A stretch of DNA of 64,000 nt from Natronosalvus caseinilyticus (GTDB lineage Archaea; Halobacteriota; Halobacteria; Halobacteriales; Natrialbaceae): NCBI RefSeq assembly GCF_017357105.1, contig NZ_CP071596.1, forward strand, positions 3,286,001 to 3,350,000, read 5' to 3'. Positions 35,300 to 52,702 of this stretch are shown piece by piece (position 1 is the stretch's first letter; each line of letters begins with the position of its first letter). Under the pieces are notes generated by a model. It had not been told where the DNA came from and searched no databases. It saw only the letters and a program-made list of their open reading frames with translations. A program made the position numbers and the translations under genes.

Positions 35300-36688
35300 T
35301 TACTGATCGGCGACGCCCCGTTCCACGACGAGAACTCGAAGATCGTTGACGTTCGTTCCAGTCGCTCCCGTCCGAATCAGCGCGTTGGCCGCCTCGAGCG
35401 TCGGATAGGCGTCGTTCCGCTCGAGCGCTCGTCGCGCTTTCAGCGGATCGAGTGAGCCGTCGCGGGAGACGGTTCGCTGGTCGGCGATGGCTCCCGCCGC
35501 GTCCGTCGCACCGTCGATGCCGTCGGTGTCGACGCTGGCGACGACCGCCGGGACCGCGAGTTCGAGCGCCCCACCGAGAACGAACTCCTGGTTCGGACCG
35601 CCTCGACCGTAATCGTCCACAAGCGTGACAGTGGTTTCCCCGCCCGAGAGGACGACGGCTGGTGGCTCTACTGGCTTCCCCGTCCGGGCAATTTCCTCGG
35701 CAATGGCGACCTGCGTTTTCGCGGCCTCGCGTGCTTCGCCTCGCACGGACGAGGATAGTACGAGCGGCGCGTAGCCGCGGTCGACGGCGACCTCGCGGGC
35801 TGCCTCGAGCGCCGTGTTCGCATTGGCGACGACGTGGCAGTCGACGTCGTCGAACGCGGGATCGTCGTCGGTTGGCGTCTCTCGTTCGTTGCCGTCGGCT
35901 CCGCGTCGGAGGTGCTCGAGAACCGACTTCGGAGCGCCGATGCCGTACCGCTCGAACACGTCGAGCGCGTCCGCGAAGGTCGTCTCGTCGGGCGAGAGCG
36001 GTCCGCTGGCGATCACGCTCTGGTCGTCTCCGGCGACGTCGCTGACGAGCAACCCGACGACGGTCGCAGGAGCCGCGGCGCGGGCGAGATTCCCGCCCTT
36101 GAACCTCGAGAGGTGTTTCCGGACGACGTTGAGCTCGTCGATGGGCGCACCGCTGGCGAGCAGTGCCTCGGTAGTTTTCCGGAGGTCCTCGAGCGAAACG
36201 TTCTCGGCGGGTGCCGGAAGGAGAGCGCTCCCACCCCCGGTGAGACAGCCGAGGACGAGGTCGTCCGGGCCAGCGTTCGCGGCCCGTTCGAGGACCGCGT
36301 TCGCCCCCTCGAGACCGCGTTCGGAGGGGACGGGGTGATCGCCGGGCATCACGTCGATCCGGTCGGTTTCGACGGGGTCGTCGGTGACCACGACGCCGCC
36401 GTCGATTCGATCCCCCAGTAGGGACTCGAGCGCCGCGGCCACGTGGCCTGCGGCGTTTCCGCCGCCGATAACGACGACGTCGTCGTACGCCTCGAGGTCG
36501 TAGGTTTGTGATGGGCCGGCGACCGGGGTGACAGTGAGGTGCTCGTCCTCGAGCGCGAGCGCGTCGAAGACGACCCGTCGTGGGTGGGTGGCATCGGTCC
36601 CCGCGATCAGACAGTCCAGAGCGACCGCTCGCGGTTCGCTCGAGGCGAGTGCGTCGTAGTCCTCGACGGTGATCCGTGGGACATCCAT
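35300..36688 (-). CDS. Glycerate 2-kinase (MOFRL/GckA family)
   Basis: 462 aa. The N-terminal DUF4147 domain has VVIGGGNAAGHVAAALE near 72, MPGDHPVPSERGLEGANAVLE and LTGGGSALLPAPAE near 148. KHLSRFKGGNLARAAAPATVVGLLVSDVAGDD is typical of the kinase. The C-terminal MOFRL domain has VLSGGETTVTLVDDYGRGGPNQEFVLG and SVDTDGIDGATDAAGAIAD. It phosphorylates D-glycerate to 2-phosphoglycerate, feeding lower glycolysis. It is the last gene of the sugar cluster, 9 bp after the GH15-like gene. Confidence 0.94.
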   Translation of the reverse strand: MDVPRITVEDYDALASSEPRAVALDCLIAGTDATHPRRVVFDALALEDEHLTVTPVAGPSQTYDLEAYDDVVVIGGGNAAGHVAAALESLLGDRIDGGVVVTDDPVETDRIDVMPGDHPVPSERGLEGANAVLERAANAGPDDLVLGCLTGGGSALLPAPAENVSLEDLRKTTEALLASGAPIDELNVVRKHLSRFKGGNLARAAAPATVVGLLVSDVAGDDQSVIASGPLSPDETTFADALDVFERYGIGAPKSVLEHLRRGADGNERETPTDDDPAFDDVDCHVVANANTALEAAREVAVDRGYAPLVLSSSVRGEAREAAKTQVAIAEEIARTGKPVEPPAVVLSGGETTVTLVDDYGRGGPNQEFVLGGALELAVPAVVASVDTDGIDGATDAAGAIADQRTVSRDGSLDPLKARRALERNDAYPTLEAANALIRTGATGTNVNDLRVLVVERGVADQ

Positions 36689-36697
36689 ATCGACACC

Positions 36698-38041
36698 TTA
36701 CTCGTTGGCCCGTTTGAGTAGCGCGGTCAAGAACTCGGCGTGACACCACGCCAGAGGTGCCGCAAAAGCGATGACCTCGCTCTCTTCGAGGGCCTCAGCC
36801 ATCCCGTCGTACGCCCTCCGCATGGACTCGAGTTCCTCGACGACACGGTCGAAGGGAACGTCGCGGAGCACGTCCGGGTCGAACTCCTTATCGAAGTCAA
36901 CGCCAGTGTTCCACTCCCGCGCTCGGAACTGTTCGAACCGGTCGCGCGTCGAGAGGTGCTCGGGGATGAAGCCATCGTCGTCCGCGTGACTAACGATCGT
37001 CGAAAGCACGTCGTCACCGCGATCGAGTTCGCCTCGATCGTACCGATACTGCGCATGCCACGCCGTGTACTGCATCCAGGGGCCTGTACCACCGTGCTGG
37101 TGGACTTCGTGGTCGCGGTGGAAGCCGCGGAATCGCTGGAGTCCCCCGAGTCGCGGATCTTCTAACCCCGCTGCGGCCCGTTCAGCGGCTCGAATCGCCT
37201 GATCTCCAAACAGATCCTCGAGGTCGAAGTACGTGGGTGCCAGAAGTGTGATATCGGGACGGTCGTCGCGCTCTCCGTCCGGCGTAAAGCGCCGGGGGAC
37301 TGGAACGTCGTCGACCGCGAAGCACCGCTTTACACCAGGCTCGAGACGGTTCAGAAATTCCTCGATATGGTCTCGCTCCGCATCGACTGCAATGTTTGTA
37401 GCGGCGTCGATCCGTTCGAAGGCGTCGAGTGCTTGCCGAAAGCCGGCAAGGAACGCGCAGTTGACCCAGAGGGTGTAGCCGGATTCGATCGCTCCCTCGT
37501 GAATACTCGTGGTGCTCTCGATCAGATGAGCGTTAGCGTCGTAGAGGTCGCGCCGCGCATGTGCCACTGCGGCGTCGATCGCCTCGACGGCCGCAGAGAG
37601 AAACGCCTCGTCGGCCGCTTCCAGACCTGTCACGGTCTCGAGGGCGACCACGGCGTGAGCGATAATTCGGATGCCGTGGGCGACGTTGTCCTCCTGCCGG
37701 TAGATGCCCTGTTCGGTCCCGTCGAGCGCGTATCGTTGATACCAGCGGCCGTCATCCTCGACGGCAATCATGAAACGGGCCGATTCGAGAATCCGGTTCA
37801 GACACTCCGTCGGTCGCACATCGTGTCGGATCGCCGTCAGCCACGCGCGGGTGATCGAGGCAATGTCACGCGGATATGCGTAGGGATACCGATTGTCCGG
37901 ATCGCTTGCGAGGGGTACCCCACCCTCGACCTCGGCTTCGTAGGTGAGTTCGTCCAGCACGTCGAGATGGAATTCTGGGTTCGCGATCGCTTTGGAGTGC
38001 TGAAAGGCGATACCGTCCGTCGTCTGCTGAGAACAGGTCAT
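36698..38041 (-). CDS. GH15-like glucoamylase/alpha-glucosidase
   Basis: 447 aa (alpha/alpha)6-barrel glycosidase. NRYPYAYPRDIASITRAWLTAIR near 51, DDGRWYQRYALDGTEQG near 100 and LIESTTSIHEGAIESGYTLWVNC near 172 resemble GH15 glucoamylases. In GH15 the two catalytic Glu residues lie in equivalent loops, but I cannot fix them here. There is no signal peptide, so it is cytosolic and acts on imported oligosaccharides. It lacks the N-terminal supersandwich domain of bacterial glucoamylases. Related clan members (GH63-type glucosylglycerate hydrolases of similar length) are an alternative. It is 8 bp from the MalK gene. Confidence 0.75.
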   Translation of the reverse strand: MTCSQQTTDGIAFQHSKAIANPEFHLDVLDELTYEAEVEGGVPLASDPDNRYPYAYPRDIASITRAWLTAIRHDVRPTECLNRILESARFMIAVEDDGRWYQRYALDGTEQGIYRQEDNVAHGIRIIAHAVVALETVTGLEAADEAFLSAAVEAIDAAVAHARRDLYDANAHLIESTTSIHEGAIESGYTLWVNCAFLAGFRQALDAFERIDAATNIAVDAERDHIEEFLNRLEPGVKRCFAVDDVPVPRRFTPDGERDDRPDITLLAPTYFDLEDLFGDQAIRAAERAAAGLEDPRLGGLQRFRGFHRDHEVHQHGGTGPWMQYTAWHAQYRYDRGELDRGDDVLSTIVSHADDDGFIPEHLSTRDRFEQFRAREWNTGVDFDKEFDPDVLRDVPFDRVVEELESMRRAYDGMAEALEESEVIAFAAPLAWCHAEFLTALLKRANE

Positions 38042-38049
38042 AAGAGATT

Positions 38050-39216
38050 TTACTTGCGGGTGAGCGGTTGGGTGTCGCTGCGTGTTTCGCCGAAACCGCG
38101 GGTCTTGATCGATGCCGTCGTGTCTGGATCGAACAGATAAATGTCGGCTGGAGCGATGGCAACTTCGATTTCGTCGCCAGTCTCCGGGTAGACCGAAGGC
38201 CTGACGCGAGCCGTCATCGAACGACCGTCGACGTCGAGGTAGACGAAGTTGTCGTTACCCTGGTATTCGGTAACCGAAACGGTGGCCAGGAAGTGGCTCC
38301 CGGTTTCGTTTTCGTCTTCGCCCCCAGCGTCGAGAGTGAGGTCCTCGGGTCGAACCCCAAACCGGATCGTCCGTCCCTCGAGATCGTCTTCGACGGACTC
38401 CTGGGGAACGCGGCCGAGCGTCGTCCCCTCGAGGTCGAACGCGTAGTGATCGCCTTCGGCGCGGACGATCACGTCGAAGACGTTCATCGCCGGACTCCCG
38501 AGGAAGCTCGCGACGAACTCGTTGACGGGATGTTCGTAGGCGACCTCCGGTGGATCGACCTGCTGGAGGACGCCGTCGTCCATGATGGCGATGCGATCCG
38601 CCATCGTCATCGCCTCGGTCTGATCGTGAGTCACGTACACCGCGGTCACGTCGAGATCGGCCTGAATCCGCTGGAGCTCGGTACGCATGTGCGATCGAAG
38701 TTTGGCGTCGAGGTTCGAGAGCGGCTCGTCGAGCAGGAATACGTCCGGATCTCGAACGAGTGCCCGCCCGAGTGCGACCCGCTGTTTTTGCCCGCCGCTC
38801 ATCGCCTCGGGTTTGTCCTCGAGCAACTCCTCGATGTCGAGGAGGGCGGCGGTCTCTTCGACCCGATTTGCTCGCTCGTCGGCGGCCATGTTGGTCGAGT
38901 GCTTGAGTCCGTAGCCCATGTTCTGACGGGCCGTCATGCGCTTGTACAGCGCATAGCTCTGAAACACCATCGCCACGTTTCGCTCGCTCGGTGCGAGTCG
39001 GTGAACCGTCCGGTCGTCGATGTTGATCGCGCCATCGGTTACCGTCTCGAGGCCCGCGATCATCCGGAGTGTGGTCGACTTCCCGCACCCCGATGGGCCG
39101 ACGAGAACGAGAAATTCTCCGTCTTCGACGGTTAGTGAGACGGAGTCGACCGCCGTGATTTCGCCGTCTGTATCGTCGTAGACTTTCGTAACGTCCTGTA
39201 GTGTGAGTTCAGCCAT
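38050..39216 (-). CDS. Sugar ABC transporter ATPase (MalK/UgpC type), copy 2
   Basis: 388 aa. Walker A GPSGCGKST is at 40-48, Q-loop MVFQSYALYKRM, signature MSGGQKQR, Walker B DVFLLDEPLSNLDAK and H-loop VTHDQTEAM are all present. The C-terminal TOBE/OB region (about 240-375) is the MalK-type regulatory domain. It overlaps the debranching-like gene by 8 bp. A second MalK lies three kilobases upstream in the same cluster, sharing the one visible pair of permeases. Confidence 0.92.
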   Translation of the reverse strand: MAELTLQDVTKVYDDTDGEITAVDSVSLTVEDGEFLVLVGPSGCGKSTTLRMIAGLETVTDGAINIDDRTVHRLAPSERNVAMVFQSYALYKRMTARQNMGYGLKHSTNMAADERANRVEETAALLDIEELLEDKPEAMSGGQKQRVALGRALVRDPDVFLLDEPLSNLDAKLRSHMRTELQRIQADLDVTAVYVTHDQTEAMTMADRIAIMDDGVLQQVDPPEVAYEHPVNEFVASFLGSPAMNVFDVIVRAEGDHYAFDLEGTTLGRVPQESVEDDLEGRTIRFGVRPEDLTLDAGGEDENETGSHFLATVSVTEYQGNDNFVYLDVDGRSMTARVRPSVYPETGDEIEVAIAPADIYLFDPDTTASIKTRGFGETRSDTQPLTRK

Positions 39217-41272
39217 CGATAGTCACCTCCGGGTGGGTGTCGCCGTCAACGTCTGGATCCGACTCGGAGTCCACGGTTCGCTCGATCGGTTGCGCTGAAA
39301 TCACGCCATCAGCGATCAACGCCGCCTGCGTGAAGCCGAACGCGCTTCCGGCGCTCCAGGCCGCTGGCTCGCACGAATCTGGGTGGCGAGCGCGTCCGGC
39401 GTCCACGGCGGGCTCGTCTAGGCCGACGAGCAATTCGGGAAAGCCCCACCGATCGGGACTGGCCTTGAGGCCGCTCGAGAGCGCACCCAGTCCGCGGTCG
39501 ACGAGTTCGTCCACGGCGTCCGCGCGGCCGTACCGCGCACACCCGAGCGCGGCGAGGCTGGAATCGTGGGGCCAGACGCTCCCACGATGGTAGGAGAGTG
39601 GATCGAACGCCGGGTGCGAGGACGAGTACGTTCGGACGCCGGCGTCGGCCAGCATGTCCGGCTCGAGCAGTCGATCGATCACGCTCTCTGCCCGTTCGGC
39701 CGGGACGATTCCCGACCACAGGGCGTGGCCCTGGTTGGAGGCGACCGCCTCGACCGGTCCGCCGGCGTCGAGCGCCAGGGCATAACTGTCTGCCCCGGGG
39801 AGCCAGAACGCCTCGTCGAACGCGCTCTGCAGGTTGCCGGCTCGTTCCTCGAGCGAGGCCGAACGGGCCTCGTCGTCGCGTGTACTGGCGAGACGGGCGA
39901 CGCCGCGAAGCGCCCGGTAGGCGTATCCCTGTACCTCCGTCAGCGCGATCGGTGGCGTCGCCGCGGTGCCGTCGGGATGAGCGATCGCTCGAGCGCTGTC
40001 CTTCCAGCCGAGGTGGGTGAGCCCGTACTCGTGATCGTGGGGCTCGTACCAGAGAAGTCCGTCTTCGTCGCCCGCCGAAATCGTCCACTCGACGGCCTCG
40101 ACGGCGGCGGCGTACAGGTCGTCCGAGACCGGGGATTCGCTGGATTCCGCGTAGGCAGCGACGAGCGCGGCGAACAGCGGCGTCGCGTCCACCGTTCCGT
40201 AGTACGGCCTGCGGATCGATCGACCGAGCGCCGGACGGTCCCCGAGACGCCCCTCGTGAGGTATCTTTCCGGGTTCTGCGCGGGTGTCGGTGTCGGTCGT
40301 CGACGCCTGTTGCTCGGCAAGGTACTCGAGGATTCGTTCGGTCAGCTCGGGTGCGAACGGCAGCGTCTGAAACCCGACGAGGAGGGCATCGCGTCCGAAC
40401 GGGGCGACGAAACGTGGGGCACCCGCAGCAGGGACGCCCTCGGGGAGCATCAACACCTGCAGGGTGGCTTCAGCGGCCTCGAGAACCTGCTCGAGGGGCG
40501 CGTTCGTAAGGGACGCTGGACTCGGATCCGTCTTCGACGCCGGGGGCGCGGTCGGGACCTCGAGGGACGTCACAGGGGACAGGTCGAACTCGGGAACAGG
40601 AATCGGTTCGCCACGCATCGGTCGTAGCGTCGCGGTGGCGACGACCGTTCGGTTCTCGCCGGCCGCCAGATCGATCGTCCGCTCGAACGTGGCTCGAGCG
40701 CCCTCGCCGGCAGAATCGACGCGTTCGAGACGGCATCCCTCGACGATAATCGCCGCCCTGCGAGAGGTCCCATCGGGCGAGGTACCAACGATGGCTACCG
40801 TCTCTTCGTGTTCGGAGGCGGTCGCGAAAATCTCCCGGTCGACCGGCTCACGCGGCGAAAAGAACCCAGGACACTCGAAGACGTGTCGGAACGCGCTACC
40901 GATTTCGAACTCGAGGTCGAGCACCCGCTCTTCGAGGGCGTGGTTTCGAACCGTCGTCTCGAGGACGACCGTAGCCTCCTCGATCGAGAGGCGCTTTTTC
41001 AGCACGAACTCACGAGCGTCCCCACGTCCGTCCCCAGGGGCGGCACCCATCAGAACGGTGGTGACGCCTCCGGGTCCAGCGCGTCGCTCCAGCCGATCCC
41101 AGCCTCGTCCGGGAGCGGTTCGGTCGGTTACTCGAACGCTGAACTGCCGGAGGTACTGGGTATCGTTCGCGTAGACCCCCGACTCATCAGGCTGGGTTCG
41201 CACGTCTCCGTCGGGACCGACGACGCAGACCACGCCGTTTCGAACCGTCAGTGCACAGTCCTGGGGGATCAT
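39209..41272 (-). CDS. Glycogen-debranching-enzyme-like glycosidase
   Basis: 687 aa. Residues 1-215 match the beta-rich N-terminal domain of debranching-like enzymes (FSVRVTDRTAPGRGWDRLERR; GVYANDTQYLRQFSV). Residues 260-660 form an (alpha/alpha)6 domain with APRFVAPFGRDALLVGFQ, GTVDATPLFAALVAAYAE, EVQGYAYRALRGVARLA, SNQGHALWSGIV and SYHRGSVWPHDSSLAALG. These suggest an alpha-1,6-glucosidase or related exo-glycosidase. It has no signal peptide. It overlaps the genes on both sides (4 and 8 bp), so it is part of one transcript with the transporter. Confidence 0.8.
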   Translation of the reverse strand: MIPQDCALTVRNGVVCVVGPDGDVRTQPDESGVYANDTQYLRQFSVRVTDRTAPGRGWDRLERRAGPGGVTTVLMGAAPGDGRGDAREFVLKKRLSIEEATVVLETTVRNHALEERVLDLEFEIGSAFRHVFECPGFFSPREPVDREIFATASEHEETVAIVGTSPDGTSRRAAIIVEGCRLERVDSAGEGARATFERTIDLAAGENRTVVATATLRPMRGEPIPVPEFDLSPVTSLEVPTAPPASKTDPSPASLTNAPLEQVLEAAEATLQVLMLPEGVPAAGAPRFVAPFGRDALLVGFQTLPFAPELTERILEYLAEQQASTTDTDTRAEPGKIPHEGRLGDRPALGRSIRRPYYGTVDATPLFAALVAAYAESSESPVSDDLYAAAVEAVEWTISAGDEDGLLWYEPHDHEYGLTHLGWKDSARAIAHPDGTAATPPIALTEVQGYAYRALRGVARLASTRDDEARSASLEERAGNLQSAFDEAFWLPGADSYALALDAGGPVEAVASNQGHALWSGIVPAERAESVIDRLLEPDMLADAGVRTYSSSHPAFDPLSYHRGSVWPHDSSLAALGCARYGRADAVDELVDRGLGALSSGLKASPDRWGFPELLVGLDEPAVDAGRARHPDSCEPAAWSAGSAFGFTQAALIADGVISAQPIERTVDSESDPDVDGDTHPEVTIDG

Positions 41273-42411
41273 TCGTCGATCACCTCCCCCTCCGGCCCGA
41301 ACCGGTGAATCGCGTCGGCGGAGAACTGCAGGGTCGCCGCCGATCCCGGCTCGGTCGTCTCGGGCCGGTGGCGCAAGCGAGCGGTGACGACCGTTCCGTC
41401 ACAGTCGAACTCGATCTCGTACGCGTTTCCGAGAGGCTCGACGACGAGCGTCTCGCCTTCCAGCTGGTAGGTCTGCCCCGAGTGGTGTGACTGCATTTGT
41501 TCATCTCCCTGTCGGTGTCGGTGGCCGTCTTCTTCGGCGACGGTGACGTCTTCGGGACGGACGCCGATCGTCGCCGCCCCAGAGAGCGAGTTCTCGCCGC
41601 TAATCGATTTCAATTGTTCGGGCTCGAGGAAGTTCATCGACGGCTCCCCCAGGAATCCCGCGACGAACTCGTTGACGGGATTCTCGTAGACCTCCTTTGG
41701 TGTGCCAACCTGCTGGAGGCGACCGTCGTTCATCACCGCGATGCGGTCGGCCAGACTCATCGCCTCCTCCTGATCGTGGGTGACGTAGATCGTCGTCGTT
41801 CCCAGTTGTTGCTGGAGGCGACGCAGTTCGGTTCGCGTCTGGACGCGAAGTTTCGCGTCGAGGTTCGACAGCGGTTCGTCCATCAGGAACGCCTTCGGCT
41901 CGCGGACGATGGTCCGTCCAAGTGCGACCCGCTGGCGTTGCCCGCCGCTCAACTGACCCGGTTTGTTGTCAAGCAGGTCGTCGATCTCGAGCAATTCGGC
42001 GGTTCGCCGGATTCGCGCCTCCATTTCATCGTCCTCGAGATCCAGCTTCTCGAGCGGGAACTCGAGGTTGCCTCTGACGGTTTTGTGCGGGTACAGCGCG
42101 TAGCTCTGGAAGACCATCGAGAGATCCCGCTTCTGGGGAAGCGTTTCGGTAACGTCCTGCTCTCCGATTTCGATGGTTCCTTCGGAGGGGATCTCGAGGC
42201 CGGCGATCATTCTGAGAGTGGTCGATTTGCCACAACCCGAAGGGCCGAGCAAGACGAGGAACTCGCCGTCCCGAATCGTCAGGTTAAGGTCGTCGACGGC
42301 CAGCAGGTCGCCGAAGTGCTTGGTGACGCCGTCGAGACGAATTTCGGAGAAGGCGTCGGTTCCGAGGCTGGTCGTTTCCGTCTCGGACTCGGAGAGTGTG
42401 TGCTCTGCCAT
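41269..42411 (-). CDS. Sugar ABC transporter ATPase (MalK/UgpC type), copy 1
   Basis: 380 aa. Walker A GPSGCGKST is at 56-64, signature LSGGQRQRVALGR, Walker B AFLMDEPLSNLDAK and H-loop VTHDQEEAM. A 20-residue acidic N-terminal extension precedes the domain. The C-terminal TOBE region is shorter than in copy 2. It lies one base after the MalG-like permease gene and overlaps the debranching-like gene by 4 bp (ATGA). Being directly next to the permeases, it is the more likely primary ATPase. Confidence 0.94.
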   Translation of the reverse strand: MAEHTLSESETETTSLGTDAFSEIRLDGVTKHFGDLLAVDDLNLTIRDGEFLVLLGPSGCGKSTTLRMIAGLEIPSEGTIEIGEQDVTETLPQKRDLSMVFQSYALYPHKTVRGNLEFPLEKLDLEDDEMEARIRRTAELLEIDDLLDNKPGQLSGGQRQRVALGRTIVREPKAFLMDEPLSNLDAKLRVQTRTELRRLQQQLGTTTIYVTHDQEEAMSLADRIAVMNDGRLQQVGTPKEVYENPVNEFVAGFLGEPSMNFLEPEQLKSISGENSLSGAATIGVRPEDVTVAEEDGHRHRQGDEQMQSHHSGQTYQLEGETLVVEPLGNAYEIEFDCDGTVVTARLRHRPETTEPGSAATLQFSADAIHRFGPEGEVIDE

Positions 42412-42412
42412 G

Positions 42413-43324
42413 CTATCCCTCCACCGCCCCGAAGGTGAGCCCTTCGACCATGAATTTCTCGAGATAGGTGAACATCACGATCAGCGGAATGCTCGTCAGC
42501 AACGACGCCGCCATGATCTGGCCCCAGACCTGACGGAAGCTCGAGGACAGTGCCTCGATCCCGATCGGCAGAGTGAACACGCTCTGGGACTGCAGGAAGA
42601 TGCTGGCGAACAGGTACTCGTTCCACGCGATCATGAACGTGAAGAAGAACACGGCCACGATCGCCGGCGCCGACAGCGGCAGCGTGATCTTGAAGATTAC
42701 CTCGAGACGGGAGTAGCCGTCCATGATAGCGGCTTCCTCGATCTCCTCCGGAATCGACCGGAAATAGTTGCCGAGCATGTACAGTGAGACGGGTAGCGTC
42801 TGGACGAGATACGTGATGAACAGGCTCGCCAGCGAGTCGACGAAGCCGAGCCAAACGATCACCTGAAACATCGGGACGACGAGTAGAATGCCCGAGAACA
42901 TGTAGACCATGAGGACGCCGCGGGAAAAGATTCCCCGGCCGCGGTAGTCCAGGCGGGCGAAGCTGTAGGCGCCGAAGGTGGCGATGACTACTGACGCTCC
43001 GGCGGTGACCACCGAGACGATGAAGCTGTTCTTGAAGTACGTGATGAACGGGAACGTCTCGGGCCCGAATACTGTTCGATAGTGCTCGAACGTGATTTCG
43101 GTCGGGATGAGAGTCGGTGGCAGCGTGTAGAGGGTCGATTCGGGCAAGAGGCTCGCGACGGTCATGTAGTAGAACGGAAAGAGCGTCACGAGCAAGGTCA
43201 AGCCCATCGCGAGATAGAATACGACCCGTTCGAAGAGCGACGTCTCGATGGTCGCCTCCCCGACGCCGAGTGCGTTCTTGAACGAGTCGACGACGTGTCG
43301 GTAGGTGGATTGCTTCGTACTCAT
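42413..43324 (-). CDS. Sugar ABC transporter permease (MalG type)
   Basis: 303 aa with six membrane helices. The EAA loop (EEIEEAAIMDGYSRLEVIFKITLPLSAPAI near 204-233) contacts the ATPase. The N-terminal cytosolic part (about 30 residues) and the LPPTLIPTEITFEHYRTVFG periplasmic loop are typical of MalG/carbohydrate permeases. It starts 4 bp after the MalF-like stop and pairs with it to form the channel. Confidence 0.94.
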   Translation of the reverse strand: MSTKQSTYRHVVDSFKNALGVGEATIETSLFERVVFYLAMGLTLLVTLFPFYYMTVASLLPESTLYTLPPTLIPTEITFEHYRTVFGPETFPFITYFKNSFIVSVVTAGASVVIATFGAYSFARLDYRGRGIFSRGVLMVYMFSGILLVVPMFQVIVWLGFVDSLASLFITYLVQTLPVSLYMLGNYFRSIPEEIEEAAIMDGYSRLEVIFKITLPLSAPAIVAVFFFTFMIAWNEYLFASIFLQSQSVFTLPIGIEALSSSFRQVWGQIMAASLLTSIPLIVMFTYLEKFMVEGLTFGAVEG

Positions 43325-43328
43325 CGTT

Positions 43329-44219: not shown

Positions 44220-44234
44220 TGGTTCGAGTGGTGG

Positions 44235-45551
44235 TTAGTTGATCACGTCGCGCATCTCCTCGGCAACTTCGTCCGCGACGGTCTGGGCGTCTTCTCCTTC
44301 GGACACTCGTCTGACCGCTTTAGCGACGAGCGTGCGGCTGGTGATGTCCCCGAATTCGGGGATCATCTGGCCGTCGACGTAGCCGAAGCGTTCGATGTTG
44401 TCGAACGCGCCCGAGATGTTTCCGAGGGTCTCTTGCCCCCACTCCTGAAGCGTCTCGTTATCGCGGTACGCGTCGCTTTCGGCCGTCGACTGGAGTACTG
44501 GGTTCATACCCCCGGGCGCCATGTGAAGGAAGTCGACGTATTCCTCGCCAGTGAGAACGTGCTCAACGAAGCCCTGTGCGGTCTCCGTCTCGGTGTCGCT
44601 GGCGGTGTCGAGTACGTTGAACATGACGAGCTGACCGAACGAACTGCGCCGCTCATGCTCGATGTACGGTGCGAAGGAGGTGTCCTCTGCCAGTCCGTCC
44701 GCGTTGCTGGAGATGTCGCCCATGATGTACGAGGAGTACATGATGAGGTGACACTGGTCGTTGAGATACGTGTTATTCGCCGTGTCGAAGGTATCGGCCC
44801 CCGGTGGGCTATATTCGGCGAGTGAACCGTAGAACTCGAGCGCTTCGACCATCTCGTCGCTGTCGAAGACGATTTCGCCGTCGGCGTTGAATACGCGAGC
44901 CCCGTTCGACCGGGCGTAAGGCGTGAAACACTGCCGGGCGAACGGCGTCTCGTCGGAGCCGACGACGACCCCGTACTCGTCGTTGTCCGGATCGTGGAGC
45001 GTCTCCGCGGCCTCGAGGATGGCGTCCCACGTCGTAGGGGCGTCGAGTCCGGCGTCGTCGAACGCACTCTGTCGGTACCAGAATCCCTGCACCCAACCGT
45101 GAGCCGGAACCGCCAGCAGGTCGCCGTCGGCGGACGTCGCAAGCGATAGTGCGCCCTCGTAAAAGTCGTCTCGGCCAATTTCGTCGACGATCGACTCCGC
45201 CGTGTCGCTCGAGAGGAGTCCCTCGCTTCCGAGGTTCTGCATCGGGTCCAGCCCCCACTCCCCGAACGCCGGCAAGGTGTCCGATGCCTGTGCCGACGAA
45301 ATCTGCGTGGGGAGGTCGCCTTCCTCGACCGGGACCATGTCGATCTCTCCGCCGTCGTAGCTATCGATCAGCTTCTGCAGGACTTCCTGTCGATCCTGCT
45401 CGACGTTCGTCGTCCAGAACGTGGTTTCGTTGGTTCCGTCGTCACCCCCCGTGATGGTACTCAGACACCCTGCAGTCGCTCCGGCGGCTGCCGTTACCCC
45501 GATCCCCTGCAGTACCGCTCGCCGATCGAACCCGAGTTCTCGGTCTGTCAT
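44235..45551 (-). CDS. Tat-exported lipoprotein sugar-binding protein
   Basis: 438 aa extracellular solute-binding protein of ABC family 1. The signal FDRRAVLQGIGVTAAAGATAGC has a twin-Arg motif and a lipobox (TAGC), so the mature protein would be anchored via Cys near residue 30. The mature part has YDGGEIDMVPVEEGDLPTQIS and GWVQGFWYRQSAFDDAGLDAPTTWDAILEAAETL, typical of MalE-type proteins. Start MTDRELG (45551); the two ATG/GTG codons before it do not extend a conserved part. The ligand is unknown. Confidence 0.93.
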   Translation of the reverse strand: MTDRELGFDRRAVLQGIGVTAAAGATAGCLSTITGGDDGTNETTFWTTNVEQDRQEVLQKLIDSYDGGEIDMVPVEEGDLPTQISSAQASDTLPAFGEWGLDPMQNLGSEGLLSSDTAESIVDEIGRDDFYEGALSLATSADGDLLAVPAHGWVQGFWYRQSAFDDAGLDAPTTWDAILEAAETLHDPDNDEYGVVVGSDETPFARQCFTPYARSNGARVFNADGEIVFDSDEMVEALEFYGSLAEYSPPGADTFDTANNTYLNDQCHLIMYSSYIMGDISSNADGLAEDTSFAPYIEHERRSSFGQLVMFNVLDTASDTETETAQGFVEHVLTGEEYVDFLHMAPGGMNPVLQSTAESDAYRDNETLQEWGQETLGNISGAFDNIERFGYVDGQMIPEFGDITSRTLVAKAVRRVSEGEDAQTVADEVAEEMRDVIN

Positions 45552-45651
45552 GGTAGTCCATCCCAATATGGAGAATAATACTACTTAATGTTTTTGGGTG
45601 TCTTATTCACTAAGGTTACTACGGATGTCAGTGCGTGGTCGTCGTGGTGCG
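45552..45651 (-). promoter_or_regulatory. AT-rich gap with probable internal promoter for the transporter genes
   Basis: This is the only sizeable gap (100 bp) in the ten-gene cluster. It is AT-rich near 45575-45600 with a T-run and TTAAG/TATTATT-like elements on the minus strand, about 25-45 bp before the binding-protein ATG. It suggests separate expression of the highly needed binding protein. Confidence 0.45.
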
Positions 45652-47190
45652 TTACTCCGCTGGTGCACATCGCAGTCGCAAACGATACGAGGATCTCCCG
45701 TCGATTGCGAGTGAAACCGTTCCGTTCGAGAGCTGGAGTGATCCCTCGTCGACCGCCGCCTCGACGGCCTCGACGGTGAGGAGACCGGAACCGATCGACG
45801 CCTCCCGAGGCTCGTCGCTCACGTTCGAGAGAACGAGAACGATCCACCCGGAGCCGCGCGCGTCTCCCGCGTCTGGGAATCCAATAGGGTCCGCGTCGTC
45901 GGGTCGAACGTGGTGAACCAACACCGGTGGCTCGGGTAGGTCGAGGAAGCTCTGCGTCAGCCCGCGGGATCGCTCCTCGAGCGGCTTGGCCGTGGATTCA
46001 CCGGTTGTCTGGACCAGCGGCTCGTGGTGCTCGGCTTCCATTCCTAGCCGATGAGCTCTCGCTTCGTCGAACGAATCGGCGTGTAGCTGAAAGTGATACT
46101 GCGCACGCACGAGCCCCGGCTGACGGGCCCGAAAGTTCGTATCCCAGTAGTTGCTCGTCACCCAGCCCAACAGTAACGCCCGCTCGAGATCGGTGGTCGA
46201 ACGAGTCTCCGCGAAGTGATAGCCGCCGAACTGCACCATCGGGTTGAGCGGACAACCGACCGTGACGCTCCGTTCCTCGCCGCCGAAGGCGACCCACCGC
46301 TGTGCGGTGTAGTAGTCGTGGCACGTTCCGGACAACTGGTCGCGGCCGGGACGCATCGCGTGCCCGCCGACGTCGACGTACGGAGTAGGGCTGTCGAGGG
46401 CGAACGGGAACGTCAGGTACGTCGATTCGGGGTGCGTGTCCAGTCCCATCTCCCACGCCGCGTCGACGACCATCGAATCTCCGGAATCCTCGAGGAATAG
46501 CCGTAACGAAACGGGGGAGCGAAGCGTCGGTACGCGGAGACGCTGCCGGATCTCGAATCCGCCCGGGAGCGCCGAAACTCGATGACTGAGCACCTCGTTC
46601 GACCGTTCACGGCTGGCGCCCCAGTCGGCCCGAAATCCGTCGTACGTCCCGGTCGCACCCGTCGCTACGAGTCGACGATTCACGTCGGCGTCGTACCGAT
46701 AGAGCAACTGTCGGGGTCGCTCGTGCCCTTCGTCCGCGACTCGTTCGTGAACGATTCCTGCGAATCCCTCTTCACAGGAGCCGTCGATCCACTCTGTCTC
46801 GCGTTCGACGTCGTACCAACTCGAGACGCCGCCGCGCTCCAGGTCGAACGTTACCCGGTAGCCGCCGGTTTCGATTACCTCGCTTCGGTCGATTCGTTCA
46901 CCCTCGAGGATGCGCAGTTCGTCCGCCGAAACGACGACGTATCCGAATCCCGGAAGCTCCGTTGGCGGCAGCCAGTAGGCATTCGATCCGAAGACGGCCG
47001 AGTCGTCCCCGTTGTCGAACGCCGCAGGCGTCGAGCGCGATCGGTCCCGGTCCTGAAAGTGGCGGGCGGCCGTCGGATCGTCGACGATGCCGCGGGGACT
47101 GACGACGTGCCGCGAGATCGGGCCTAACTGGGTTCGTCGCCACGGAAGCGGGTTCACGACGAGCAGATCGGTCGACGGATTTTCACTCAT
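45652..47190 (-). CDS. GH38-type alpha-mannosidase, C-terminal half (separate protein)
   Basis: 512 aa, beta-rich. DLLVVNPLPWRRTQLGPISRHVV is the start of the GH38 C-terminal beta-sandwich region. FDLERGGVSSWYDVE near 123-137, GFEIRQRLRVPTLRSPVSLRLFLE and TYLTFPFALDSPTPYVDVGG also match. It lacks the catalytic HxD domain, which is in the gene just upstream. Start MSENPSTD at 47190 overlaps the upstream stop (ATGAGTGA, 8 bp). The two products probably assemble into one enzyme. No signal peptide is seen. Confidence 0.82.
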   Translation of the reverse strand: MSENPSTDLLVVNPLPWRRTQLGPISRHVVSPRGIVDDPTAARHFQDRDRSRSTPAAFDNGDDSAVFGSNAYWLPPTELPGFGYVVVSADELRILEGERIDRSEVIETGGYRVTFDLERGGVSSWYDVERETEWIDGSCEEGFAGIVHERVADEGHERPRQLLYRYDADVNRRLVATGATGTYDGFRADWGASRERSNEVLSHRVSALPGGFEIRQRLRVPTLRSPVSLRLFLEDSGDSMVVDAAWEMGLDTHPESTYLTFPFALDSPTPYVDVGGHAMRPGRDQLSGTCHDYYTAQRWVAFGGEERSVTVGCPLNPMVQFGGYHFAETRSTTDLERALLLGWVTSNYWDTNFRARQPGLVRAQYHFQLHADSFDEARAHRLGMEAEHHEPLVQTTGESTAKPLEERSRGLTQSFLDLPEPPVLVHHVRPDDADPIGFPDAGDARGSGWIVLVLSNVSDEPREASIGSGLLTVEAVEAAVDEGSLQLSNGTVSLAIDGRSSYRLRLRCAPAE

Positions 47191-48499
47191 CGGCCACCTC
47201 CTCGGAAGCGACTTCACGATCGGGCGTGCACTCGGCCTCGCGGTCGCGTTCCGCCGCAGTTTCCGCCCCGTCCGCGTCGAGAACGTAGCGGGCTACCTCT
47301 GCCACCGCATCCCGTCGTAGCGCGTTGCTGTCGTTGCGTGCCGAGTGGGCGTACTGGGCCTTGTGATTCCACTGGGTTCGCGTGTCTTCGCTCTGCGGGT
47401 CGCTTATCGCGGTGTCCGCACCCCACGTGTGCTCGTCGTAGTACGCGAGGTTCCGCCACGCGCGTTCTCGAGTACCGGCGCCCACGCGACGGTAGCGTGG
47501 CCGTTCGTTCCGCCCGTTGCCCAGCGCACCGAGGACCGCCTCCATCGCGTCTGCAGTCAGCAGTCTGCGCCGACTCTCACGGTTGATCCCCGTTTCGCGA
47601 GCGCTGCTGAGACAGCCGAAGTTCCAGTAATCCGTCCAATCGCCGCGTCGAATCGGCGCGTCTCCGAGGGCGTCGTCGACGGACTCCCACCACAGGGAGG
47701 GCGTCGACAGTTTGAGCCGTGGAGACCGCCCCTCGCGGACTGCTGGTCGGTCGTTCCACGCCTCGACGAACGCGCCGTACCGGTCGAACGGCGGCCCGTT
47801 GTCGCCGAACGGGTGGTACGCCGGGATCGGAAGCGTCGGCAAATCGTACCCCACGGCGTCGAGACGGTCGGCGACCGCCTCCCAGCGAGTTTGGAACGTC
47901 TCGAGGTCTCGTTCGATGCCGAGATTCCAACCCGCGGAGTAGTGATAGCCGTCGAGGGTCGGGATCGTTCGGCCGCTCGGCCCCTCCCAGCGAAACAACG
48001 ACGGTCGGTCGGTCGCGGCCGCGCCGAAGTGGTTGTTGATCCCCATCCAAAATCCCTCGATTCCGGCGTCCAGGAGTGCGTCGACGAGGGGCCAGTTCTG
48101 TCCGTTGACGTCGAAGTTCACAGCGTATCGGACGTCGAACCCGTACCGGTCTCGAAGAATTTCGACCGGGCGAAGCGACTCGACGGTTTCCGCGGGGCCG
48201 TACAGCGGCGTCGCGTTCGCCAGCATTCCCGTGATTTCGATCCGACCGGCCGACTCCGCGCGCTGGAGTGCTTTGATCCGCTCTGGCGGCGCCGATTCGA
48301 GCCAGTGCAGGAGCGGCGCGGTCGCCTCTACCGTCCACCGAAACGCTGCGGGTCCGTCGATGGCGAGATCCTCCTCTGCCAGGTCGATGGCTCGCTCGAG
48401 AAACCGGCAATGCAGGTCCCAGAGCGTCGGCTGATCGTGAGTGTACCCGACGTCGGTGTGTGAGAGGTGAACGACGTGTATTTCGTCAACAGTTGTCAT
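47183..48499 (-). CDS. GH38-type alpha-mannosidase, catalytic half (separate protein)
   Basis: 438 aa. HVVHLSHTDVGYTHDQPTLW at residues 7-26 carries the zinc-binding His-x-Asp of the GH38 barrel. FDVNGQNWPLVDALLDAGIEGFWMGIN near 133 probably includes the nucleophile Asp. EHTWGADTAISDP near 352 supplies a further His and closes the catalytic region. The C-terminal 40 residues are an acidic, unconserved tail, so the protein ends naturally before the beta domains that other GH38 enzymes carry. It is the first gene of the ten-gene cluster, with a TATA box 25 bp upstream. Its substrate may be a mannoside or mannosylglycerate; not determined. Confidence 0.85.
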   Translation of the reverse strand: MTTVDEIHVVHLSHTDVGYTHDQPTLWDLHCRFLERAIDLAEEDLAIDGPAAFRWTVEATAPLLHWLESAPPERIKALQRAESAGRIEITGMLANATPLYGPAETVESLRPVEILRDRYGFDVRYAVNFDVNGQNWPLVDALLDAGIEGFWMGINNHFGAAATDRPSLFRWEGPSGRTIPTLDGYHYSAGWNLGIERDLETFQTRWEAVADRLDAVGYDLPTLPIPAYHPFGDNGPPFDRYGAFVEAWNDRPAVREGRSPRLKLSTPSLWWESVDDALGDAPIRRGDWTDYWNFGCLSSARETGINRESRRRLLTADAMEAVLGALGNGRNERPRYRRVGAGTRERAWRNLAYYDEHTWGADTAISDPQSEDTRTQWNHKAQYAHSARNDSNALRRDAVAEVARYVLDADGAETAAERDREAECTPDREVASEEVADE

Positions 48500-48520
48500 A
48501 CGCAAGCGGTGTCTCACAAA

Positions 48521-48530
48521 GATATATAAG
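48521..48530 (-). promoter_or_regulatory. TATA box of the GH38-transporter cluster
   Basis: CTTATATATC on the minus strand is centred about 27 bp before the ATG at 48499, so the first mRNA is leaderless. Confidence 0.75.
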
Positions 48531-48549
48531 CATTTGCTACTGTGTAGGT

Positions 48550-48557
48550 ACTATAGT
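48550..48557. promoter_or_regulatory. Palindromic candidate operator between the divergent sugar operons
   Basis: ACTATAGT is a perfect 8 bp palindrome between the GH38 TATA box and the TrmB gene. TrmB regulators bind palindromic sites with TACT half-sites near promoters, and this one reads TACTATAGTG. Regulation by the adjacent gene is inferred. Confidence 0.5.
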
Positions 48558-48616
48558 GAAAATATATGTATCGTGTAATCGATCGTCGACCACCTCGTAC
48601 AGACAAAGGATAATCA

Positions 48617-48621
48617 GGTGA
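48617..48621 (+). promoter_or_regulatory. Shine-Dalgarno site of the TrmB gene
   Basis: GGTGA lies four bases before ATG 48626. It fixes this start and implies a transcript with a leader, unlike the divergent gene. Confidence 0.6.
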
Positions 48622-48625
48622 GAAG

Positions 48626-49726
48626 ATGAACGAAGACGACCTTCGATCCGGGCTTCAGGAAGCCGGCCTCTCCCAGTACGAGGCCGATGCCTACCTCGCA
48701 ATTCTCGAGCGCGGTACCGCACCAGCGGTCAAGATTGCCGAGCAGGCAGGGGTACCGAAATCAAGGATTTATGACGTACTCAGGGATCTCGAGCGGGACA
48801 ACTACATCGAAACCTTCGAGCAGGACTCGGCGCTAACAGCCCAGCCGCGCGATCCCGCGGACGTGATGGCCGATCTCGAGGAGCGAGCGAAGACGCTCTC
48901 GACGACCGCGAAGGCGATCGAAGAGCGCTGGGAACAGCCGGAGATCAGCGATCACAAAATCTCGATCGTCAAGCGCTTCGACTCGGTCATCGAGCAGTTC
49001 CAGATAGCAGCCGAAGCAGCGACCAATCGAATCCAGATCGCCGTCTCACCGTCGCAACTCGAGGCGGTCCGCCCGTCACTCGAGGACGCCGTCGAGCGCG
49101 GCGTCTTCGTGAAACTCTGTATCGCCACCGGGTTCGAGGAGCCCCACGTCGTCGAGGAGATTGACTTCGAGAGCGTGGCGACCGAGGCTCGACACCGGAC
49201 GTTGCCGGCGCCGTTTACCGCGCTCGTCGATCGGACCCACACGTTCTTTTCGTCTCAGTCGCACCCGAGTGACCAGTACGGAATTATCATCGACGACTTC
49301 ACGCTATCGTACGTGTTCCACTGGTACTTCCAGAGCGCACTCTGGGGAACGTGGCAACCAGTCTACGCCCCCGCTGCGGGCACCAAACGGGAATACGTCG
49401 ACGTGCGCGAATGTGTCCAGGACATCGCGCCGATCGTCAATGCTGGCACTGCGATACCGGCTACCGTTCGTGGGTTCGACACACAGACGGGCGAGAACGT
49501 AAGCCTCTCCGGGGAGATCACGGAGATTATCTCCGCAGGACGGCCCGACGAGGACGGGGCGCTGACGCTGACGCAACTGGCCGGACAGGCGACCCTCGTC
49601 CTCGAATCCGACGGTCTCGAGTACGGCATCGGCGGGCGAGGGGCGACCCTCGAGGACATCGAAGCGACGCGTGTGGTCATCGACCCACCCGAATCGATCG
49701 ATGGCGACGTGGGGGGTGAGACCTGA
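48626..49726 (+). CDS. TrmB-family sugar-sensing transcriptional regulator
   Basis: 366 aa. The winged-helix DNA-binding domain is at 5-75 (GLSQYEADAYLAILERGTAPAVKIAEQAGVPKSRIYDVLRDLERDNYIE). A coiled linker, a PLD-like or sugar-binding domain (about 110-250) and a C-terminal beta domain (GFDTQTGENVSLSGEITEI onward) complete the full-length TrmB layout. TrmB proteins respond to sugars and act as repressor or activator. It is divergent from the GH38-transporter cluster and heads the operon with the isomerase and dehydrogenase. Confidence 0.93.
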   Translation: MNEDDLRSGLQEAGLSQYEADAYLAILERGTAPAVKIAEQAGVPKSRIYDVLRDLERDNYIETFEQDSALTAQPRDPADVMADLEERAKTLSTTAKAIEERWEQPEISDHKISIVKRFDSVIEQFQIAAEAATNRIQIAVSPSQLEAVRPSLEDAVERGVFVKLCIATGFEEPHVVEEIDFESVATEARHRTLPAPFTALVDRTHTFFSSQSHPSDQYGIIIDDFTLSYVFHWYFQSALWGTWQPVYAPAAGTKREYVDVRECVQDIAPIVNAGTAIPATVRGFDTQTGENVSLSGEITEIISAGRPDEDGALTLTQLAGQATLVLESDGLEYGIGGRGATLEDIEATRVVIDPPESIDGDVGGET

Positions 49727-50538
49727 TGCGCTTCGGCCTCAACCAGAGCGGGTTCCCCGCGGACGATCTCGAAACGACCTGCGAGATCCTCTCAGCAGCG
49801 GGGTACGACGGCATCGAGCCGAACCTCGAGCGCGGCGGCCCGCTAACGACCGACGCCGGCCGGCGCGAGGTCGCAGCGACGATCGCGGACTATGGCCTCG
49901 AGGTGCCGGCAATTTCGACGATCGAGCACTGGGAGTACCCCCTTTCGAGTTCGGAGGACGAACGCCGCGAGGTCGGCATGGAACTCGCCAAAAACATGAT
50001 CGATGCCGCCGTCGCACTCGACGCCGAGAACGTGCTGATCGTCCCCGCCGTGATCGAGGACGGGCGCGAGTACGATCTCGGATACGACCAGGCGGTCGAG
50101 TCGGTCCGTGAACTGGCTGGATACGCCGAAGCACGGGACGTCACCCTGGCTCTCGAAAACGTCCAGAATAACTTTCTCCCGTCTCCCACCGAATTCGAAG
50201 CGTTCCTCGAGGAGGTTTCGGAAGCAGGACCCGTCGCGGCCTACTTCGACGTCGGAAACGCGCTCCGCTCGGGACTTCCGAGTCGCTGGCTGGCGACACT
50301 CCAGGGCCAAATTTCCAGAATCCACGTCAAGGACTGGCTGGTCGACAACCATCGTGTGACCTATCCACCACAAGGCGACGTCGACTGGGAGCGTGTTCGC
50401 GAGACGCTCTCGGAAATCGAGTACGACGGCTGGATCACCGCAGAGGTGCCGGCGTATCCGTCGTTCCCCGAGCGAATGCCTGTAGACGTGCTGGAGACGA
50501 TGCGATTTCTCTTCGGAGACGGGGGTGAGCGGGCGTGA
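49726..50538 (+). CDS. Sugar phosphate isomerase/epimerase (xylose-isomerase-like TIM barrel)
   Basis: 270 aa AP-endonuclease-2/hydroxypyruvate-isomerase fold. Metal ligands appear as Glu in LALENVQN near 144, Asp in AAYFDVGNAL near 173 and His in ISRIHVKDWLVDN near 196. A final Glu is in WITAEVPAYP near 237. The family includes hydroxypyruvate isomerase, inosose dehydratase and tagatose epimerase. The start shares one base with the TrmB stop (TGATG). The exact reaction is unknown. Confidence 0.9.
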   Translation: MRFGLNQSGFPADDLETTCEILSAAGYDGIEPNLERGGPLTTDAGRREVAATIADYGLEVPAISTIEHWEYPLSSSEDERREVGMELAKNMIDAAVALDAENVLIVPAVIEDGREYDLGYDQAVESVRELAGYAEARDVTLALENVQNNFLPSPTEFEAFLEEVSEAGPVAAYFDVGNALRSGLPSRWLATLQGQISRIHVKDWLVDNHRVTYPPQGDVDWERVRETLSEIEYDGWITAEVPAYPSFPERMPVDVLETMRFLFGDGGERA

Positions 50539-51551
50539 CCAGATCCATCGTCGTCGGGCCGCTGTTCGAAGACGTCTGGCCGCTGGCCGCCGACCACCTT
50601 CGAACGTTGTGGACCGAGCGCGGTCCCGTCGACTATTATCGGCTCGAGGAGACACCCGATCGGCTAACGGCGGTCCTCGACGAACCCGGGTCCATAACCG
50701 AGATCGCTGCCCTCGGCGTTCCGGTCACCGATGCAGACATCGAAGCCCTTTCTGGGCTCGAGTCGGCGTTCGTCATGACCGATTCGATGTACGCGGTCGA
50801 CGAGTCGGTTCACGACCGCCTGCGCGAGCGCGGGGTCACCGTCCTCGATCACACGAACGAAGGGTTCTGGGCGCAGTCGGTTGCAGAGTTCGGCATCGGT
50901 CTCACTATCGATGCGCTCCGCCAGATCCCGCAGAAACACTCTCGAATGATCGAGAGCCACGATCCCTGGGATCTCGACCAGCTCGACAACGACGTGCCGG
51001 GTGCGAACGGTCACCAATTCGCTGACGATCCCCGGTTCACTAACGGTACCGTCGCCGGAACTCGAGTCCGCGTCGCCGGAGTCGGGAACATCGGAAGCAC
51101 CTACGCTGACGTCGCGAACGTCCTCGGCGCGGACGTTGCCGCCTACGACCCCTACGCCGACGAACCGTGCTTCCACCGTACCGGCGCGCGGCGCGTTCAC
51201 TCGCTCGAGGCGCTGGTCGCGGACGCCGAGGTGTTCGCGCCTACGGTTCCCCTGACCGACGCCACCGAGGGACTGATCACGGCCGACCTGATTCACGCGC
51301 TACCCGAGGGCTGTGTCGTCGTCCTGATCACGCGCGCTGGCGTCGTCGACATGGACGCGGTTCGCGAGCGCGTCCTCGCCGACGAGATCGCCCTCGCGGC
51401 GGACGTTTGGGACGAAGAACCACTGGCTCTCGAGGATCCACTGCTCGACCGGCACAACGTCGTTCACACCCCCCACATCGCGGGACGAACGCGGGACGCC
51501 AACGAGTCGTGGGCCGAGTTGCTAGACGCTCACTTTCGGGCCGCGGAGTAA
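50535..51551 (+). CDS. D-isomer-specific 2-hydroxyacid dehydrogenase
   Basis: 338 aa NAD(P)-dependent dehydrogenase. The dinucleotide-binding motif is VAGVGNIGSTYADV near 177. Catalytic Arg lies in LITRAGVVD, Glu in DVWDEEPLALED and His in HTPHIAGRT. GTG start at 50535, overlapping the isomerase stop (GTGA). The family includes glyoxylate/hydroxypyruvate reductases and 3-phosphoglycerate dehydrogenase. With a glycerate kinase in the neighbouring cluster, a hydroxypyruvate/glycerate or related sugar-acid reaction is plausible but unproven. Confidence 0.9.
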   Translation: MTRSIVVGPLFEDVWPLAADHLRTLWTERGPVDYYRLEETPDRLTAVLDEPGSITEIAALGVPVTDADIEALSGLESAFVMTDSMYAVDESVHDRLRERGVTVLDHTNEGFWAQSVAEFGIGLTIDALRQIPQKHSRMIESHDPWDLDQLDNDVPGANGHQFADDPRFTNGTVAGTRVRVAGVGNIGSTYADVANVLGADVAAYDPYADEPCFHRTGARRVHSLEALVADAEVFAPTVPLTDATEGLITADLIHALPEGCVVVLITRAGVVDMDAVRERVLADEIALAADVWDEEPLALEDPLLDRHNVVHTPHIAGRTRDANESWAELLDAHFRAAE

Positions 51552-52655: not shown

Positions 52656-52702
52656 GACGGCCCTTTGCCGCGGCACAAAGATGAATGGGGGTGGCCCCGA
52701 AG

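Follow-up and report, generated by a model that had tools for sequence, protein, structure and literature searches.

A conserved haloarchaeal gene cluster for the probable import and breakdown of sugar-glycerates

The window, a 64,000-nucleotide stretch of the Natronosalvus caseinilyticus genome (contig NZ_CP071596.1), holds a cluster of ten co-directional genes on the minus strand and a divergent operon on the plus strand. Coordinates are positions within the window, and the stretch under study is 35300-51551. We propose that the cluster imports and breaks down an alpha-glycosyl-glycerate (glucosylglycerate, mannosylglycerate or a disaccharide form) released as a solute by other microbes, a reading to which we give a probability of about 0.6. 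A sugar-glycerate is favoured as substrate because glycerate kinases of two clades are linked to the cluster and because relatives of its solute-binding protein (SBP) lie in loci for glycosides of glycerate. An earlier note on this DNA had proposed an imported compound that releases glycerate; both observations give that proposal independent support, and it is partly borne out.

The SBP (44235-45566, minus strand; SBP_bac_1) has a twin-arginine signal and an AGC lipobox. Its closest solved relatives are 8ula (E-value 1e-64), YcjN (8vqk, 3e-57) and 7v09 (4e-53), followed only at 2e-13 by the next match, which places it in the YcjN-like subfamily. It is also nearer to bacterial YcjN-type proteins (8e-71 to 3e-63, blastp against a small set) than to haloarchaeal SBPs outside the cluster (best 1.6e-22 in 61 genomes, better scores being found only for the SBPs of the window and of genome G130), a comparison that is rough because the database sizes differ. 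No SBP relatives were found on viral contigs.

Ten bacterial contexts of SBP relatives were opened. Six were picked among the 40 listed of 474 matches, which were mostly near-identical Enterobacter plasmids, with Listeria excluded. The other four come from a search with the Limimaricola SBP, which at E<=1e-25 matched nine plasmid records, namely six bacterial ones (two already included) and three haloarchaeal cluster SBPs, and nothing else. In nine of the ten contexts the SBP gene adjoins a gene of the mannosylglycerate hydrolase (MgH)/glucosylglycerate hydrolase (GgH) family or a relative of glucosylglycerate phosphorylase (GGaP), and two of these also have a glycerate kinase. The relatives in Escherichia coli, Pseudalkalibacillus and Priestia stand beside a YcjM-type glucosylglycerate phosphorylase gene (the products of the latter two are 44.5% and 55.5% identical to YcjM), the one in Paroceanicella beside a GH13 protein 43% identical to YcjM, and those in Limimaricola, Thalassospira, Ruegeria, Maritalea and Nonomuraea at most 3 kb from a relative of the MGH1 hydrolases. 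The Limimaricola hydrolase matches PF22422 (7e-121), Thermus TTHA0978 (2z07 and 4wva, 7e-104) and, at about 1e-63, entries for mycobacterial hydrolases, 5ohz among them; its match to the NCBIfam glucosylglycerate hydrolase is under the cut-off. We take 4wva to be a mannosylglycerate hydrolase and 5ohz to be the GgH of M. hassiacum. In Limimaricola and Maritalea a glycerate kinase gene lies in or adjoins the operon, and Limimaricola has a D-mannose-isomerase-like gene as well. Both the Thermus and the M. hassiacum proteins are covered in the available part of the GgH paper (PMC6608630). The exception is a YcjN-family SBP gene on an Enterobacter hormaechei plasmid (L128), which has genes for a LacI regulator and for a protein of the ADP-ribosylglycohydrolase family as neighbours.

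The second argument is the glycerate kinase (GK, 35300-36688, minus strand). It scores 254 and 106 bits with DUF4147 (PF13660) and MOFRL (PF05161), over the cut-offs, as a MOFRL (class II) glycerate 2-kinase; the NCBIfam glycerate 2-kinase equivalogs match it under their cut-offs, and it is the sole MOFRL match in the window genome. The earlier note had argued that such a kinase is unusual here. This is weak alone, as 372 of 391 Halobacteria genomes carry a glycerate kinase and the congeners G277 and G250 keep theirs without the operon; presence is therefore uninformative by itself, and it is position that counts. Linkage was counted in 21 loci, comprising those of 12 genomes with the glycosidase GAM (36698-38041, minus strand), six named loci (L052-L057, about 10 kb either side of GAM) and three more (H. 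caseinilyticus, Halomarina PSR21 and, by annotation only, Halomarina BND7), with Haladaptatus pallidirubidus left out. Of these loci, the window, G178, G325, Haladaptatus litoreus and Haladaptatus DYF46 have an intact kinase gene linked to the cluster and G384 has a degenerate one. The linked kinase is the only one found in the window, G178, G325 and DYF46; H. litoreus and G384 hold another, unlinked one.

In the kinase tree the proteins of G325, H. litoreus and DYF46 form a clade (100/100) apart from that of the window, G277, G250 and G178, a genome of another family (99/94). The background consists of 40 kinases drawn from the best-scoring matches listed for the 372 genomes, in which distant kinases are under-sampled; a second tree left out 12 of the 40, the second DYF46 copy and the degenerate G384 kinase. 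We infer at least two linkages in haloarchaea and one more in bacteria. By a naive binomial that assumes independent genomes, four linkages in 12 genomes have a probability of 3e-6 and two in 12 of 0.005, one of the four being degenerate. In G384 (C5, L034) a second TIM-barrel gene, broken into two frames, and the degenerate kinase follow GAM, whereas the intact kinase is found on a different contig; this operon end is decaying.

According to our model, the SBP, a lipoprotein exported by twin-arginine translocation, would capture the glycosylglycerate. It would be brought in through a MalF-like (43329-44219) and a MalG-like permease (42413-43324; both BPD_transp_1) with two ATPases, MalK1 (41269-42411) and MalK2 (38050-39216; both ABC_tran and TOBE_2), all on the minus strand. 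SBP, two MalF/G-like permeases and MalK-like ATPases with a TOBE domain together form a CUT1-type ABC sugar importer. In the cytosol GAM and the debranching-like glycosidase GDE (39209-41272, minus strand), joined in the window strain by a split GH38-like enzyme, would cleave off the sugar or sugars, and GK, in line with the known function of its family, would turn the freed glycerate into 2-phosphoglycerate. The hexose would enter haloarchaeal sugar pathways; some sister clusters have a D-mannose-isomerase-like enzyme or a glucose-dehydrogenase-type short-chain dehydrogenase/reductase (SDR). The D-2-hydroxyacid dehydrogenase of the divergent operon (HADH, 50535-51551, plus strand) may, as a guess, interconvert glycerate and hydroxypyruvate, and the TrmB-family sugar-sensing regulator (48626-49726, plus strand) probably governs both operons. 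Sugar-glycerates also have disaccharide forms, mannosyl-glucosyl- or glucosyl-glucosylglycerate. A more far-reaching version of the proposal, tentative and in our view rather doubtful, is a separate haloarchaeal route for sugar-glycerates including these forms, in which GH38 and GDE would trim the outer sugar and GAM would be a new glycosylglycerate hydrolase evolved apart from MgH/GgH and GGaP. As to the strain's own synthesis of glucosylglycerate, the GpgS models were all under cut-off in the window genome, with 13 weaker matches. According to the accessible part of one study, gpgS genes occur without gpgP in Natrinema and about half of the Haloarcula species (PMC12029414). There is a precedent for the use of such neighbourhoods, as glucosylglycerate phosphorylase was identified via neighbours such as glycerate kinase, in the portion of that report available (PMC7178133).

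The cluster would function in the manner of the bacterial glycosylglycerate operons, but its gene content places it outside the MgH and GGaP types. With E. coli ycjMNOPQRSTU, a glucosylglycerate/kojibiose phosphorylase operon, and its Bacillales counterparts it shares an SBP of one subfamily, at about 30% identity, as well as CUT1 permeases and a TIM-barrel epimerase-like gene. The ycj operons differ in that the stretches opened contain no glycerate kinase, that phosphorylases take the place of hydrolases and the dehydrogenases YcjQ and YcjS that of HADH, and that the TIM barrels are only about 22% alike. The alphaproteobacterial operons of Limimaricola, Maritalea, Ruegeria and Thalassospira (SBP-MalF-MalG-MGH1 hydrolase-MalK) resemble the cluster in SBP, permeases and ATPase, two of the four also in glycerate kinase and Limimaricola in its D-mannose-isomerase-like gene; however, one MgH/GgH-family hydrolase replaces GAM, GDE and GH38, the regulators are bacterial and the operon has one MalK. 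The mannitol/sorbitol importer of Haloarcula hispanica, in the part of its description available (PMC11519228), likewise sets an SBP and a MalF/G/K-type importer by catabolic genes, whereas haloarchaeal CUT1 importers have other SBP subfamilies (61 relatives compared, the H. hispanica SBP excluded). Among the literature matches listed, open-access only, no title or abstract names such a haloarchaeal cluster, which is no proof of its being unpublished. If the proposal is true, 'salt-in' haloarchaea obtain food from 'salt-out' neighbours in the form of organic compatible solutes, and the cluster provides a candidate archaeal glycosylglycerate importer and hydrolases.

GAM has no Pfam match at 0.001 and no PDB profile match at 1; it points to a glycosidase family that neither database recognises by sequence at these thresholds. 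Its AlphaFold model (pLDDT 78, pTM 0.85) is an (alpha/alpha)6 barrel that resembles GH15 enzymes (Foldseek E 2e-6; VIA Z 27-29.5, with other barrel families high too). In structure the model comes closest to dextran dextrinase (Z 29.5); next is the 5z3x glycosidase (27.6), tied with GH125 alpha-mannosidases (26.8). The GH15-like label of the earlier note is thus backed by the predicted fold and not by a Pfam hit. GH15 enzymes have a Glu as general acid in the alpha5-alpha6 loop and another as general base in the alpha11-alpha12 loop; in an alignment of 18 GAM sequences E182, E186 and E361 are invariant, as judged from the alignment only, and model confidence is low in the loop 179-186.

GDE (MGH1-like_GH, GDE_N_bis and GDE_C) matches PDB entry 7vma with an E-value of 1.1e-74, or 9.6e-97 using the family profile. 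It has a likeness to Thermus MgH and M. hassiacum GgH in that their family domain, PF22422, recognises a part of it (61.9 bits, profile positions 126-324 of 356), and hhalign aligned residues 453-618 alone with MgH. GDE as an MgH/GgH was nevertheless rejected, since the PF22422 match is partial and the motif YPxQWNWD, invariant apart from its x across four aligned MgH/GgH relatives, is missing, with GAPRFxAPFGRD instead (register by eye); GDE has an extra N-terminal domain, too.

The GH38-like enzyme in two parts, as the earlier note described it, is borne out by a single-chain 870-aa Arthrobacter relative that spans both halves. Its residues 1-392 match the catalytic half GH38N (47183-48517, minus strand; 33%), and residues 455-866 match the C-terminal half GH38C (45652-47217, minus strand, with an alternative start at about 47190 possible; 23%, E 5e-29). 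GH38N belongs to the alpha-mannosidase family by its N-terminal catalytic domain (Glyco_hydro_38N, PF01074, 38.6 bits, cut-off 25), and H20, D22, D136 and H363, which we take to be the conserved His/Asp ligands, are invariant in six sequences; for GH38C all Pfam families were under cut-off. Only the window and G134 have the pair intact within the cluster, and G130 and G270 retain remnants of it. Elsewhere, the copies opened are carried by haloarchaeal plasmids, apart from the cluster. On plasmids of Haloprofundus, Halomontanus and Haladaptatus (L010, L011, L012) the split enzyme is again encoded by two adjacent genes, a second setting, with sulfatase, Gfo/Idh/MocA and sugar isomerase genes as neighbours in L010 and L012 and another GH38 gene in L011. 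GH38-like relatives in Deinococcus and Arthrobacter adjoin mannose-6-phosphate isomerase and ROK genes. An AGE-family gene is found in G244, G304, G325, H. litoreus, DYF46, H. caseinilyticus and Halomarina PSR21, and in two loci of the type 2 arrangement described below it scores best with the model for D-mannose isomerase, at 239 and 255 bits where the cut-off is 600. The AGE genes and the neighbours of the GH38-like relatives thus point to mannose as one product.

Several findings weigh against a sugar-glycerate substrate. No MgH/GgH gene was found in the cluster, GDE, which lacks the MgH/GgH motif, being the sole PF22422 match in the genome, and no YcjM-like or GGaP gene (GH13_18) either, the Alpha-amylase family being unmatched among the cluster proteins scanned. 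The complete pathway that the earlier note held possible is not shown, in view of these missing enzymes and of two barrel glycosidases that resemble alpha-1,6-acting ones: the GAM model comes nearest to GH15 enzymes whose targets are alpha-1,6 links, and GDE is closest to the amylo-alpha-1,6-glucosidase of Thermococcus gammatolerans (7vma). Only six of the 21 loci have the kinase linked, and the SBP context of Enterobacter hormaechei has neither of the two glycerate-glycoside enzymes. GDE relatives in Thermus and Deinococcus lie in sugar-importer operons for which a glycerate kinase is unlisted and whose SBPs are outside the YcjN subfamily; those in Thermomicrobium and Microvirga have unrelated surroundings. 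The published screen for a YcjN ligand found none, with no thermal shift for kojibiose, maltose and others, and the YcjN operon also encodes kojibiose phosphorylase, according to the available part of the paper (PMC11543891). If our proposal is true, it opens a way towards the ligand of this binding-protein family.

The alpha-1,6 likeness of GDE and GAM is the strongest case for the main rival, the uptake of alpha-1,6-gluco-oligosaccharides (isomaltose, panose or branched maltodextrin), with GAM as an isomaltose glucohydrolase, GDE as an amylo-1,6-glucosidase and GK in ordinary sugar breakdown. It agrees with dextran dextrinase and 5z3x as nearest matches of the GAM model, with 5Z3A being the isomaltose glucohydrolase of Kribbella in the part of the source at hand (PMC12446779), and with the assignment of haloarchaeal glycerate kinase to the branched Entner-Doudoroff pathway, as far as the excerpt of that study goes (PMC2063504). 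However, it leaves unexplained the kinase linkage in two clades, the mannose-isomerase-like neighbour, the split GH38 and the kinship of the SBP to glycerate-glycoside loci. A common fold does not prove a substrate, and the GH125 alpha-mannosidases fit GAM about as well as 5z3x does. We consider this rival unlikely, if still to be taken seriously. A solute with outer alpha-1,6-glucosyl units on a glucosylglycerate is known, and the likeness of GDE and GAM would fit such a compound, too.

The ligand could also be a related alpha-glucoside with another aglycone, for example glucosylglycerol or kojibiose, which seems improbable to us. The ycj-type loci hold GH65 genes as well, named kojibiose phosphorylase in E. 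coli, and a dihydroxyacetone kinase gene lies at most 9 kb from the SBP gene in Paroceanicella and Ruegeria, but YcjN gave no thermal shift on kojibiose in the screen cited above, and a glycerate kinase is unneeded for glycerol or disaccharide aglycones.

Two congeners, G277 and G250, are collinear with the window at 31,359-36,669 and 51,724-60,351 and lack everything between (the segment 36670-51723, delimited by collinear flanks and break points); the kinase they retain is 88-89% identical to GK. In G045, G046 and G253 an integrase-like gene and a hydrolase gene lie 0.2-0.4 kb apart with no kinase between, and in G282 they lie 7.8 kb apart, cluster genes and kinase being undetected there. 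In all four the sole kinase is elsewhere and 51-55% identical to GK, and the tree test rejects a single clade of window and congener kinases (p-AU 1.6e-6), although it includes some long congener branches. On the strength of the kinase-free congener sites and the tree we reject vertical descent of GK at this site. Because of these sites and of the distant kinase elsewhere, GK probably came with or near the cluster and stands in for the congener type. The cluster was apparently acquired from elsewhere; we infer that it arrived together with the kinase and was later lost in G277 and G250, and an earlier arrival of the kinase is possible. The island does not stand out by base composition, with 63.0% G+C compared to 63.3 and 66.5% in the measured flanks. 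The integrase/recombinase-like gene adjoining the kinase (34124-35176) is present in all six congeners examined and thus marks the site, not recent mobility. An operon inserted by chance upstream of a resident housekeeping GK, in which glycerate need not be a product, would suit the frequency of the kinase in Halobacteria and its presence at the site in G277 and G250, but it is very improbable given the other kinase lineage and kinase-free site of G045, G046 and G253, the grouping of GK with the cluster-linked kinase of G178, the second linked clade in Haladaptatus and G325 and the naive binomial, even though the latter ignores shared ancestry.

A search for the same gene order in other haloarchaea, which the earlier note had suggested, was run and shows that set and order recur in other genera, making this a conserved haloarchaeal cluster. 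GAM, which is specific to this cluster, occurs in 12 of the 391 Halobacteria genomes, the cluster being a remnant in G194 and partial in G244; its restriction to haloarchaea is provisional, since the contig scan used two peptide patterns. Ten of the 12, including the window genome, keep SBP, MalF, MalG, two MalKs, GAM, TrmB and GDE, and eight of these ten also keep the TIM-HADH pair. The same set or most of it is found in Natronococcus pandeyae, four Haladaptatus and Halegenticoccus, and on plasmids of H. caseinilyticus and two Halomarina. Two arrangements occur. Type 1 (window, G130, G134, G178, G263, G270, G297, G384) places GDE between the two MalK genes and has TIM-HADH following TrmB. In type 2 it is GDE that follows TrmB (G304, G325, H. 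litoreus, DYF46, H. caseinilyticus, Halomarina PSR21) or, in Halomarina BND7, is found about 6 kb past HADH, and most type 2 loci have TIM-HADH after GAM. In the type 2 loci of H. halobius, H. salinisoli and Halegenticoccus no GDE was found in the 10-kb flanks. G178 has a second TIM barrel and an SDR between GAM and GK, the SDR scoring over the glucose 1-dehydrogenase subfamily cut-off, among many SDR models.

All open reading frames of the ten minus-strand genes and the divergent operon were found where the earlier note had placed them, and Pfam matches agree with its families for GK, both MalKs, MalG, MalF, SBP, the debranching-like enzyme, GH38N, TrmB and the 2-hydroxyacid dehydrogenase. 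The minus-strand spacings are, in order, 9, 8, -8, -4, 1, 4, 15, 85 and -35 bp. They fit its account of overlaps or gaps of at most 15 bp with one 100-bp gap, which is 100 bp when measured from the SBP ATG (45551) and 85 bp from the longer reading frame start.

In the divergent operon, TrmB matches PF11495 (1e-48) and PF01978, and HADH matches PF02826 (2-Hacid_dh_C) with the NCBIfam models all under cut-off. The AP_endonuc_2 TIM-barrel isomerase/epimerase between them (TIM, 49726-50538, plus strand) is far under all NCBIfam cut-offs. The earlier note had called it hydroxypyruvate-isomerase-type, a label that is not supported, as it scores 20.6 bits with that equivalog, whose cut-off is 353; scores with epimerase models are higher, yet all under their own cut-offs. 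In the intergenic region 48518-48625, and in its counterparts in several clusters, a TTCACTnnAGTGAA-like palindrome comes after a TATATAA-like box; in the window this is a candidate operator in the divergent promoter at 48548-48560, minus strand. A second copy precedes SBP in G384 and G134. Allowing one mismatch, two such palindromes were found in the window and 21 of 100 shuffles reach two, which is not above chance. The known haloarchaeal TrmB motif, from Halobacterium, is TACT-N7/8-GAGTA; it has no match in the divergent promoter and a single match in the window, at 59835. The TTCACTnnAGTGAA-like palindrome is a possible TrmB operator, unlike the Halobacterium motif.

Rfam and tRNA searches of the window found nothing. 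Beyond the cluster, 54055-55812 and 55809-56297 form a gene pair, the longer one with bacterial PH domains (bPH_2), and the congeners have a second, related pair beyond a fumarase-type gene.

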